The position numbers and the translations under genes were made by a program. The notes beneath the pieces are model-generated. The model saw only the letters and a program-made list of their open reading frames with translations. It searched no databases and had not been told where the DNA came from. From IMG/VR virus record IMGVR_UViG_3300036832_001014, positions 1-20,647 of that record: 20,647 nt of DNA; one strand, given 5' to 3'. Shown one piece after another: positions 545-19,674 of the stretch (position 1 is its first letter; each line of letters starts with the position of its first letter). Source of the stretch: a virus.

Positions 545-922
545 CTAGGCGGCCAGATGCACCACGGGCGGCGGCCAGTCGTGCTGATGCGGCAGGTTCA
601 CCACCCAGGCGATCACCTGTGGCGCGGGGTGATACCACTCGTGCGCCATGTGGAACGGCCGCAGCACCATGTGGACACGGTCTTCGTCCCGCTTCGTCTT
701 GTCGCGGTCGGTGGTAGCGAGCAGCGCGGCACGCAGCTCGGTCATGCGACGCGGTGGCTTGACGCTGTAGCCGATCTTGATCCACCCGTGGCGCCACGCG
801 GCGTACAAGTAGCCGCACGAAAGCGGCCCAGGTTCGTCGTCGAATAGCGACAGCTGGACGGGCGCGAAGGCGATTAGGTCGCCTTCGCGCTTGGACCGAT
901 AGTGGTCCTGCTGATACGACAT
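545..922 (-). CDS. GIY-YIG family nuclease (T5orf172/Mug113-like) with clamp-binding motif
   Basis: A 125-aa protein. Residues 38-41 (GYLY) and 49-53 (KIGYS) match the GIY and YIG elements. They are followed by paired Arg at 58-59, a Glu/His pair at 80 and 84, and an EWYH motif near 96, the pattern of the small Mug113/T5orf172 branch of GIY-YIG nucleases. Ahead of the domain, residues 23-27 read QLSLF, the consensus motif by which bacterial proteins bind the DNA polymerase III sliding clamp. The start is the ATG at 922 because AAGGAGG lies nine bases upstream; the ATG nine bases earlier has no room for a ribosome. It follows the early operon after a 128-base gap that contains a hairpin. The nuclease family is well supported; its biological target is unknown. 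Confidence 0.8.
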   Translation of the reverse strand: MSYQQDHYRSKREGDLIAFAPVQLSLFDDEPGPLSCGYLYAAWRHGWIKIGYSVKPPRRMTELRAALLATTDRDKTKRDEDRVHMVLRPFHMAHEWYHPAPQVIAWVVNLPHQHDWPPPVVHLAA

Positions 923-1050
923 CAGGGTCATCCTCCTTCTCAGACAAGGTTGGGTGACTGGCCGCCCGGGTGATATCCGCACCCGGGCGGTCGTCGCTGT
1001 CAGGGAAGAGTACACCCGTGTTATTTCGGTCATCAGGGGTCATAAATGGT
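923..1050 (-). promoter_or_regulatory. Intergenic region with a perfect hairpin and a strong ribosome binding site
   Basis: This 128-base gap precedes the GIY-YIG gene in an otherwise tightly packed operon. It carries an 11-bp perfect inverted repeat (962-972 and 980-990, arm CCGCCCGGGTG) with a 7-base loop, then the Shine-Dalgarno sequence AAGGAGG ahead of the start at 922. No clear promoter hexamer pair was found. The hairpin could be an attenuator or terminator separating the early operon from the nuclease segment; it lacks a T-run. Confidence 0.55.
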
Positions 1051-2687: not shown

Positions 2688-2776
2688 AGCAGGGCCCCGG
2701 CGACGATGCCCCAGCACAGGGCGGCGAACACGACGACGATGGCGGCGTCGAGGGCGATCAGGCGGCGGGCGGTCAT
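2684..2776 (-). CDS. Single-helix membrane peptide (30 aa)
   Basis: A tiny gene between excisionase and the recombination-family gene, overlapping both (ATGA at its start, GTGA at its end). The product begins with two Arg and is otherwise one hydrophobic helix of about 20 residues (LDAAIVVVFAALCWGIVAGALL), so it should insert in the inner membrane with the N terminus inside. It is expressed with the early genes, far from the lysis genes. A role in host takeover or superinfection exclusion is possible, without direct evidence. Confidence 0.65.
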   Translation of the reverse strand: MTARRLIALDAAIVVVFAALCWGIVAGALL

Positions 2777-2955
2777 GATGCCGCCTTCGGCGTGATGAGT
2801 TTCTCTACGTCGGAGCGGCGGAACCGGCGGTGACCGCTTGGCAGCTCGACGGCGGTCGGAAGCAGGCCTTCTTCAGCCCAGCGCCAGACGGTCTGTCGAC
2901 TGACTCGGGCCAGGTCGGCCACTTCGTTGGTGGTAAGGAGGTCATCGGGTTGCAT
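2773..2955 (-). CDS. Excisionase-like MerR-type HTH protein
   Basis: A 60-aa protein that is almost entirely a MerR-superfamily winged helix-turn-helix of the excisionase (HTH_17) type: TTNEVADLARVSRQTVWRW, then EEGLLP, then SGHRRFRRSDVEKLI. Such proteins bind attachment-site DNA and steer the integrase towards excision, or act as small regulators. It is the first gene of the leftward early operon, directly behind a promoter with a perfect TTGACA, and diverges from the lysogeny genes. The ATG at 2955 has no Shine-Dalgarno sequence, which fits a nearly leaderless message. Being first in the lytic operon matches an excisionase, but a Cro-like regulator is also possible. Confidence 0.8.
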   Translation of the reverse strand: MQPDDLLTTNEVADLARVSRQTVWRWAEEGLLPTAVELPSGHRRFRRSDVEKLITPKAAS

Positions 2956-2993: not shown

Positions 2994-3062
2994 GGGCGGC
3001 GTAACCGGAAAACCCGGAAGGCCGGAGGGATAACGTTTATCCCTCCGCTATCGTGGGCCGCT
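2994..3062 (+). promoter_or_regulatory. Rightward control region with a 23-bp palindrome
   Basis: The space before the rightward gene holds a perfect inverted repeat, GGAGGGATAA and TTATCCCTCC separated by CGT, at 3024-3046. TATCGT at 3049-3054 is a possible -10 element placed eight bases before the ATG at 3063, which would again give a leaderless message; no good -35 is visible. The palindrome covers where RNA polymerase would contact DNA, so it is more likely an operator than a terminator. It is unlike the GTTAC operators, which suggests a second regulator. Confidence 0.5.
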
Positions 3063-3713
3063 ATGACTACCAACGACGAGCAGAGAACCAACGGCAATAT
3101 CCCGGTCCGGGTGACCCAGGCTGATATCGATCAGGCGACGGTCAACAATTCATCGCGTTGCGTCGTGGCCACCGCGATCGCCCGGTCCATCCCTGACGCC
3201 ACCCGGGTCTCAGTCGACGTGCAAGCCATCCGGTTCACCTCCGGCGGCAAGCGGCACACCTTCCTGACGCCGCCGACCGTGGCCGGTTATGTGGTCGCCT
3301 TCGACGCCGGCGAAGAGCTCCGGCCGTTCCGGTTCGTGCTGCGCAGCGATCAGCACATGGTCGTCCGGCCCAAGAAGCCACCCCTCACCCCGGCAGGAAG
3401 GACAACTGACCGCACGAAGAGCAAGGTGCGGAACGCCAAGAAGGCTGTAGAGCGGGCGGAAGCCAGGGCGGATGCTCTGAAGTCAGCTGGCGCCTCGCCC
3501 AGCGAGGTGAAGCGGGCAGAAGCCAAGGTCGCGGAAAAGCTCGAAGTGGTGAACGAAGCAGAGGACAAGCGGGCCGCGGTCATGGCCGCCTACTCCGGCC
3601 AACCGAAATACGAACCGGCGGACAAGTCGCTGCCGATGACCACGCCGCAGGTGTTCAAACGTAACGAGCGGGTGTACGGGATGCGCCTGCTACGTATCAA
3701 CCAGGCCCGGTAA
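3063..3713 (+). CDS. Conserved-looking phage protein of unknown function with coiled-coil middle
   Basis: A 216-aa soluble protein. Residues 13-102 form a compact domain (IPVRVTQADIDQATVNNSSR, then AIARSIPDA, then a GGKRHTFLTPPTVAGYVVAF segment) that resembles short hypothetical proteins common in actinobacterial phages and plasmids; I know no function for them. Residues about 118-178 are a long charged helix rich in Ala, Lys and Glu, probably a coiled coil. A short basic C-terminal segment follows. It is the first rightward gene, divergent from excisionase and upstream of the repressor with a separate promoter between them. No Shine-Dalgarno sequence is seen before the ATG. It may be expressed in the lysogen. 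Confidence 0.75.
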   Translation: MTTNDEQRTNGNIPVRVTQADIDQATVNNSSRCVVATAIARSIPDATRVSVDVQAIRFTSGGKRHTFLTPPTVAGYVVAFDAGEELRPFRFVLRSDQHMVVRPKKPPLTPAGRTTDRTKSKVRNAKKAVERAEARADALKSAGASPSEVKRAEAKVAEKLEVVNEAEDKRAAVMAAYSGQPKYEPADKSLPMTTPQVFKRNERVYGMRLLRINQAR

Positions 3714-3719
3714 CACGAC

Positions 3720-3754
3720 TTGACCACATCTGTTCCATAGGTTACCTTCGTTGC
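3720..3754 (+). promoter_or_regulatory. Repressor promoter giving a leaderless transcript
   Basis: TTGACC at 3720-3725, a 17-base spacer and TACCTT at 3743-3748 make a good sigma70-type promoter. Only six bases separate the -10 element from the ATG at 3755, so transcription should begin on, or within a base or two of, the start codon. There is no Shine-Dalgarno sequence, which is consistent with this. Lambda cI made from PRM is a known leaderless repressor message. Confidence 0.72.
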
Positions 3755-3768
3755 ATGAGTAACGAAGG
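3745..3768. promoter_or_regulatory. Autoregulatory operator over the repressor start codon
   Basis: CCTTCGTT at 3745-3752 and AACGAAGG at 3761-3768 form a perfect 8-bp inverted repeat with an 8-base spacer that holds the ATG. Within it, 3750-3764 read on the minus strand is CGTTACTCATGCAAC, matching the operator-like site at 2967-2981 in 13 of 15 positions. It overlaps the -10 element and transcription start, so occupancy would shut off the repressor gene. Confidence 0.65.
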
Positions 3769-4105
3769 GGTTGGGGTGGTGCCGGAGTGGACCGTCGGGG
3801 ACCGCATGATCAAGGCCCGGACGGTCGCCGACCTGTCGCAGGAACAGATGGGCGAATACCTCGGCCTGTCCCGGGTCACGCTCAGCCGGTACGAGACCGG
3901 CCACAACCGGGTACCGCTCACCGTGTTGCGCCTGTGGGCCATGCGCTGCGGGGTCCCGCTCGACTGGCTCCGCTATGGCGACGCTCCCCCGCTGCCCGAG
4001 GTCACCGCCGGGCCCAAGCCGCGCCCGAAGGGTCCGAAGCGTCCGAATCGTCGGACATCAACCGGATGGTTGATTGTGCCCCACCGCTTAGCGGCGGCGG
4101 CCTAG
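3755..4105 (+). CDS. Cro/C1-type HTH immunity repressor with ssrA-like C terminus
   Basis: A 116-aa protein. Residues 16-73 are a classical HTH_3 domain, with the helix-turn-helix at about 28-51 (LSQEQMGEYLGLSRVTLSRY). Residues 83-105 are a basic Pro/Lys/Arg linker and the last residues are RLAAAA. The absence of a peptidase or dimerisation domain makes it a compact repressor like those of integration-dependent mycobacteriophages. The gene ends 38 bases before the integrase start. Its 3' end contains two perfect inverted repeats back to back, which may be part of attP. The LAAAA ending resembles an ssrA tag recognised by ClpXP. Role as the immunity repressor is inferred from fold, position and operators. 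Confidence 0.82.
   Translation: MSNEGVGVVPEWTVGDRMIKARTVADLSQEQMGEYLGLSRVTLSRYETGHNRVPLTVLRLWAMRCGVPLDWLRYGDAPPLPEVTAGPKPRPKGPKRPNRRTSTGWLIVPHRLAAAA
4041..4094. repeat. Cluster of inverted repeats in the repressor 3' end (candidate attP region)
   Basis: GTCCGA-ATCG-TCGGAC (4041-4056) is followed without a gap by ATCAACC-GGAT-GGTTGAT (4057-4074), and then CCGC-TTA-GCGG (4084-4094). They lie between the HTH domain and the integrase gene, where integration-dependent phages carry attP. They are candidate integrase or excisionase binding sites. No tRNA 3'-end sequence was recognised, so the crossover core cannot be fixed from this window. Confidence 0.4.
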
Positions 4106-4143
4106 ACACGGGTCGGGCGGTGACTGTGACCCGGGAGTGTCCC

Positions 4144-19392: not shown

Positions 19393-19674
19393 TCAGAACC
19401 GTGTCAGGTAGTCGGCGACCCCCGTCAGGTAGCGGGCCCGGTCGGCGCGACGGTCGTTCGCGATCTGCGCCCCACCCCGCCCGTTGCAGGTACGGCACGC
19501 AGCGCGCAGGTTGCCCCAGTCGTTCGACCCCCCGTCCACCACAGCAACGATGTGGTCCACCGTGGTCGCCCACCCAGTGCAACCCGGGCCGGCGATGCGG
19601 CACCGTGCACGGTCACGGTCCAACACGTACTCTCTCACCCGTCGCCACGGCCGACTACTGCGTTGCGTTGCCAC
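19393..19674 (-). CDS. HNH endonuclease of the packaging module
   Basis: A 93-aa protein with an HNH motif: TTVDHIVAVVDGG (Asp40-His41), then NLRAACRTCNGRG (Asn55, Cys60-Cys63, Asn64), with Cys25 and Cys32 completing the zinc site. HNH nucleases directly upstream of terminase are common in HK97-like phages and are required with the terminase for DNA cleavage at cos. The GTG start lies 12 bases after the previous gene; an ATG seven bases earlier is out of frame and soon stops. It opens the late operon. Confidence 0.9.
   Translation of the reverse strand: MATQRSSRPWRRVREYVLDRDRARCRIAGPGCTGWATTVDHIVAVVDGGSNDWGNLRAACRTCNGRGGAQIANDRRADRARYLTGVADYLTRF

Follow-up and report, generated by a model that had tools for sequence, protein, structure and literature searches.

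A conserved, probable recombination core within the repressor gene of a soil phage points to integration-dependent immunity in phages probably infecting Acidimicrobiia

The stretch of DNA analysed here (the window) comes from a soil phage and makes up a virus record of 20,647 bases; its relevant features are collected in the table below. The open reading frame at 3755-4105 (MSNEGVGVV...TSTGWLIVPHRLAAAA*; C-terminal stretch ...RRTSTGWLIVPHRLAAAA) gave matches to HTH_3 (E 9e-12) and to PHROG 2328, ‘transcriptional repressor’ (E 7.5e-21), confirming the original prediction of a short HTH repressor ending in RLAAAA. An AlphaFold model of this protein showed confident helices from residues 14 to 74 and pLDDT values below 50 past approximately residue 83; as the modelled tail is disordered, its loss should leave DNA binding intact. 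As had also been predicted, the integrase gene begins (ATG 4144) 38 bases past the repressor stop codon and on the same strand. The integrase model opens at once with a four-helix core-binding domain, so that an arm-binding domain is lacking, and both its best PDB match and its best profile match was the Brujita integrase 5vfz (23% identity over the structural alignment).

Features of the window discussed in the text (positions from the first base of the window)
Feature	Position	Strand	Remarks
Small HTH_17 protein, excisionase/Cro-like candidate	2773..2955	-	Divergent from repressor block
Perfect 8-bp inverted repeat CCTTCGTT-N8-AACGAAGG	3745..3768		Spans repressor start codon; candidate operator
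Immunity repressor, viral (long) form	3755..4105	+	116 aa; HTH ~14-75; disordered tail; C-terminus RLAAAA
First inverted repeat GTCCGA-ATCG-TCGGAC	4041..4056		Unconserved in relatives
Probable attP core ATCAACC-GGAT-GGTTGAT	4057..4074	+	In-frame S-T-G-W; same-frame core in 25 loci
Trp codon TGG, predicted to become a TGA stop on integration	4067..4069	+	Change seen at attL of G001 and G111
Removable tail WLIVPHRLAAAA, ssrA-like end	4067..4102	+	24/25 core-bearing relatives end -AA
Tyrosine integrase, 279 aa	4144..4983	+	PF00589; no N-terminal arm-binding domain; C-terminus untagged (..SRMAR)

From its sequence, the inverted repeat over the repressor start codon is a possible operator. GTTAC/GTAAC elements occur there and again at approximately 2957-2981, and possibly serve as operators at both places; the repressor message may be leaderless. 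Between the excisionase-like gene and the repressor, on the strand of the latter, lies a gene for a 216-aa protein (3063-3713; PHROG 19191, function unknown), which is unusual beside the divergent cro/repressor order of BPs, and upstream of it, at 3023-3047, an inverted repeat (CGGAGGGATAACGTTTATCCCTCCG) has perfect 11-bp arms and a 3-nt loop. HNH-endonuclease-like ORFs, judged by eye from their translations, are situated close to both record ends (47-496 and 19393-19674, both on the - strand), and an ORF at 545-1033 (-) gave a weak MUG113/T5orf172 (GIY-YIG-type) match.

Two perfect inverted repeats had been predicted within 4041-4074 and both are present, the first having 6-bp arms and the second, which directly abuts it, 7-bp arms, each with a 4-nt loop. 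Dinucleotide shuffling of 3755-4143 (2000 times) never produced such a back-to-back pair, which is thus unlikely to have arisen by chance, whilst 6% of the shuffled sequences contained a single hairpin with 7-bp arms and a 4-nt loop. In relatives, conservation is limited to the second repeat (ATCAACCGGATGGTTGAT), so that the description ‘attP-like repeats’ could be retained for 4057-4074, probably the attP core, and had to be withdrawn for 4041-4056. Neither a T-run nor a terminator-like site was found at the repeats, and a terminator was accordingly rejected; a tRNA-derived core was likewise rejected, as no tRNA was found in the window and the core had no tRNA likeness and no T-loop motif by eye, in keeping with the predicted absence of a tRNA core.

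A scan of viral contigs with the single integrase sequence returned no relatives, and those of the window’s branch were obtained with an alignment as query. This search yielded 24 further loci with TC[TA]ACCNNATGG or CCTACCAAATGG upstream of the integrase gene, 25 including the window. In all of these the core was within an ORF of 90 codons or more and was read in the same frame, as S/P-T-x-W. The residues encoded at the core vary (STGW, STKW, STRW, SSAW, KNAW and PTAW). The sequence TCAACCGGATGG is common to the window, L284, L295 and L298; the 17-mer at 4057-4073 is identical in L284 and a 14-mer is identical in L003/L295. Matches to the 14-mer TCAACCGGATGGTT in viral contigs were, among those listed, mostly chance. 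The repressor bodies of the window and L284 gave no BLASTP alignment, yet the core is kept, and the L298 repressor had no Pfam match. Several codons of the core are rare in this genome, GGA accounting for 2.6% of Gly codons, TCA and TCT for 9% and 4% of those for Ser, and AGA for 4% of those for Arg, and its two arms change jointly (AACC..GGTT versus TACC..GGTA). Its retention in dissimilar repressors, together with the rare codons, indicates that the constraint acts on DNA, and the rare codons and co-varying arms point to selection on a recombination core.

The tails that follow the core comprise 6-16 residues of unrelated sequence, ending in -AA at 24 of the 25 loci and in -AS at the other, compared with 11% AA endings among the long ORFs of these loci. 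This count was made without ORF selection and replaces a figure of 27/29 that partly rested on hand-picked ORFs; since the loci share kinship, binomial probabilities overstate its significance. In L302 and L303 the 300 bases leading to the core are 99% identical, and the two diverge from the base after TGG. L303 and L304, whose repressor bodies differ, have 41 bases in common, starting 9 bases before TGG and reaching base 32 as counted from TGG; both sequence patterns record an exchange at the core.

Secondary core-like palindromes (TACCGGACGGTA, TACCGAACGGTA and TACCACACGGTA), in which TGG reads CGG, were observed between the attP core and the integrase gene at L286:2929, L289:2936, L296:2896, L297:2728, L300:2914 and L301:2677 and 2933. 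Extra genes lie between the attP core and the secondary palindrome, including methyltransferase-like genes in L297/L301, and HNH endonucleases occupy the corresponding place in L294/L302, where a second site was not seen. The secondary copies suggest cassette accretion at attP. We offer tentatively, as a possibility that is rather less than even, the broader proposal that attP in the repressor is a joint between modules, its palindromic core and fixed frame enabling the integrase to swap repressor bodies, tails and cargo, akin to the cassette collection of integrons.

Crossover could be located to the base in two related prophages, both of them in genomes of Acidimicrobiia. That of Acidiferrimicrobium sp. 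IK (L204/G001), of approximately 37.3 kb and with an integrase 42-44% identical to that of the window, has a 21-bp direct repeat (GGCCGGTGGTGGGTCTCGTTG), the core, at both ends. Its attL repressor ends ...GGGSR* (TGA); the rebuilt attP encodes a phage-form repressor ending ...GGGSRWNATRIAAVMPLHSDVAA*, and the attB reconstructed from the flanks encodes an uninterrupted histidine phosphatase (PF00300, E 9e-43). The second prophage (genome G111) splits dtd, and its attL repressor (...GGSPTA*, TGA) is of the window’s repressor family (37% over 73 aa, E 6e-15); in this instance the rebuilt attP gave a phage-form repressor ending ...GGSPTAWNDDRPGQVLAFRRLAA* and the flanks, when joined as attB, make up a complete dtd (PF02580, E 3e-52). 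In both prophages, the repressor gene is interrupted by the chromosome precisely at the core and one host base converts the Trp codon TGG to TGA, removing tails that end in VAA or LAA. The Trp codon of the window’s STGW occupies the position that is stopped in these prophages, and a 104-aa prophage form ending in STG is predicted by this correspondence. A contig from a bacterial bin (G427, L448) encodes a long-form repressor (...SWCTPQSLKPAA) adjoining a related integrase, has no junction and apparently carries an uninterrupted attP. Searches among the families of G001, G111 and G427 retrieved no further prophages.

These integrase relatives (L204, G111 and G427) make Acidimicrobiia the likely host class of the window phage. 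The original prediction of a different host group is upheld as likely by these relatives. No prophage or attB of the window phage’s own core was found in approximately 300 Acidimicrobiia genomes: 296 were scanned with the 17-mer, allowing up to two mismatches. None of the sites listed matched exactly, and the near matches were dispersed over genes such as rpoC, ftsZ and those of ABC transporters and included no convincing common site. The candidates truA, nuoG and ftsZ were without support and were dropped. The proposed search of host genomes for prophage junctions thus gave none for the window phage, and two relatives in which crossover occurs at the core.

A tblastn search found relatives of the window repressor in 257 phage records, the top matches being prophiT36-2a of M. 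abscessus (49%) and Wizard-type Gordonia phages (42%), which have been described as integration-dependent (PMC9934374, PMC5559632). Phayonce (cluster P), matched with the G111 repressor as query, has a repressor of the same HTH family. The attP cores of Wizard, prophiT36-2a and Phayonce are tRNA 3' ends, whereas that of the window is a palindrome unrelated to tRNA. Of 76 IMG/VR repressor relatives, most of those with a downstream integrase have -AA or a similar C-terminus, while those at prophage edges commonly read into a tRNA 3' end, where they terminate; the two forms together represent the known switch, using tRNA attB sites. Integration-dependent immunity has also been reported for Brujita, a cluster I mycobacteriophage (PMC6109161), the integrase of which is called ‘simple, arm-less’ in the title of Lunt & Hatfull 2016 (cited in PMC8138268). 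The window integrase resembles it in being a short tyrosine integrase without an arm-binding domain, although identity is low, as given above, and the host class differs. With a repressor homologous to those of known integration-dependent phages and an integrase nearest to that of Brujita, the window does not represent an independent invention, contrary to what had been proposed.

In the BPs gp33/gp32 cassette (Broussard 2013; PMC4557955), attP lies in the repressor gene, the truncated prophage form is active, and an ssrA-like tag on the viral form leads to its degradation. The window shares with BPs the order of repressor then integrase on one strand, a probable attP in the repressor and an ssrA-like end on the viral form, so designated here by a sequence criterion only. 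Compared by description, gp33 has a removable tail of 33 residues and its integrase is tagged, whereas the tail of the window is of 12 residues, shorter than the published 18, 20-35 and 33, and its integrase is untagged. The integrase tag, which several relatives do have in the form of -AA, is a non-defining trait of BPs and is absent from several Mab systems also (PMC8092301). An attB overlapping a tRNA gene is similarly common and non-defining, and the two related prophages are instead inserted in dtd and in a histidine-phosphatase gene. The M. abscessus prophages MabC, MabH, MabN and MabO have non-tRNA attB sites, and in MabC, MabN and MabO the attL stop codon arises from the first bacterial base (PMC8092301); their repressors are without -AA tags, in contrast to the tails of the window’s clade.

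Taken together, it is very probable that the window encodes an integration-dependent immunity switch, in which attP lies in the repressor gene and chromosomal insertion cuts off the degradation tail, leaving a stable repressor. For the window attP the evidence is comparative, comprising the in-frame core of the 25 loci and the crossover mapped in two relatives, and the switch resembling that of BPs, as originally envisaged, is supported by the base-level attL and attR of those relatives and by the window’s own conserved core and tail pattern. During lytic growth and in the virion, the repressor would be made as the 116-aa form, whose unstructured tail, directly preceded by the core in the reading frame, is expected to be recognised by a protease of the ssrA/ClpX type. 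The adjacent arm-less integrase would recombine the core with a non-tRNA chromosomal attB, so that attL would retain the promoter and HTH body of the repressor, and a TGA stop is predicted to replace the Trp codon. We infer that the resulting repressor of approximately 104 aa is stable and confers immunity, maintaining lysogeny, whilst the 3' remnant (tail and integrase gene) would land at attR and excision would restore the unstable long form.

Of the other explanations considered, the strongest, though improbable, is that the phage does integrate at the core while the long repressor escapes degradation, truncation merely trimming a neutral tail or adjusting activity otherwise, as through multimerisation or partner contacts. 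Some M. abscessus systems of this type indeed do without an -AA tag and presumably rely on different signals (PMC8092301). Against this, very different tails in the window’s clade converge on -AA at all but one locus, which has -AS; the tmRNA tags in three genomes of the putative host class (AEPQLALAA, AEPQLSIAA and ADGDYALAA) end in LAA or IAA as the tails do; and BPs provides a precedent for degradation through an ssrA-like tag (PMC4557955).

We consider it very unlikely that the repressor is an ordinary one with attP elsewhere, and that the repeats are a terminator, an operator or a chance occurrence. The frequency of the single hairpin in shuffled sequence and the lack of conservation of the first repeat would agree with this; however, nothing at the site resembles a terminator, unrelated repressors retain the second repeat at the DNA level, and the crossover mapped in both related prophages falls on it. 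More remote still is the notion that S-T-x-W is a conserved protein motif, such as a hinge or a peptide signal, from which the likeness in DNA follows. The invariant frame is what such a motif would produce, but the residues vary, rare codons (TCA, GGA, TCT and AGA) are held in common, the palindrome survives changes in both arms, and the G001 and G111 prophage forms stop before the Trp residue. The integration-dependent switch thus remains the reading that we favour.

We regard the window as a very probable non-tRNA case among the integration-dependent immunity systems already known (BPs, Brujita and cluster P). Non-tRNA attB sites and stop codons from the first bacterial base (M. abscessus, PMC8092301), arm-less integrases (Brujita) and -AA tags (many systems) are already known individually. 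What is probably new is their combination in phages probably infecting Acidimicrobiia, with one core located within unrelated repressors. A literature search, which was not exhaustive, found no reported case in Acidimicrobiia, and we know of none. Integration-dependent immunity is thereby extended to phages that probably infect this class, with attB in protein genes and an arm-less integrase. The clade is a natural data set, in which one core runs through many repressors with convergent -AA tails and recombinants broken at the core; it allows the joint evolution of a recombination site and a protein-stability switch to be tested, and is a source of small integrases whose target sites are short and not of the tRNA kind.
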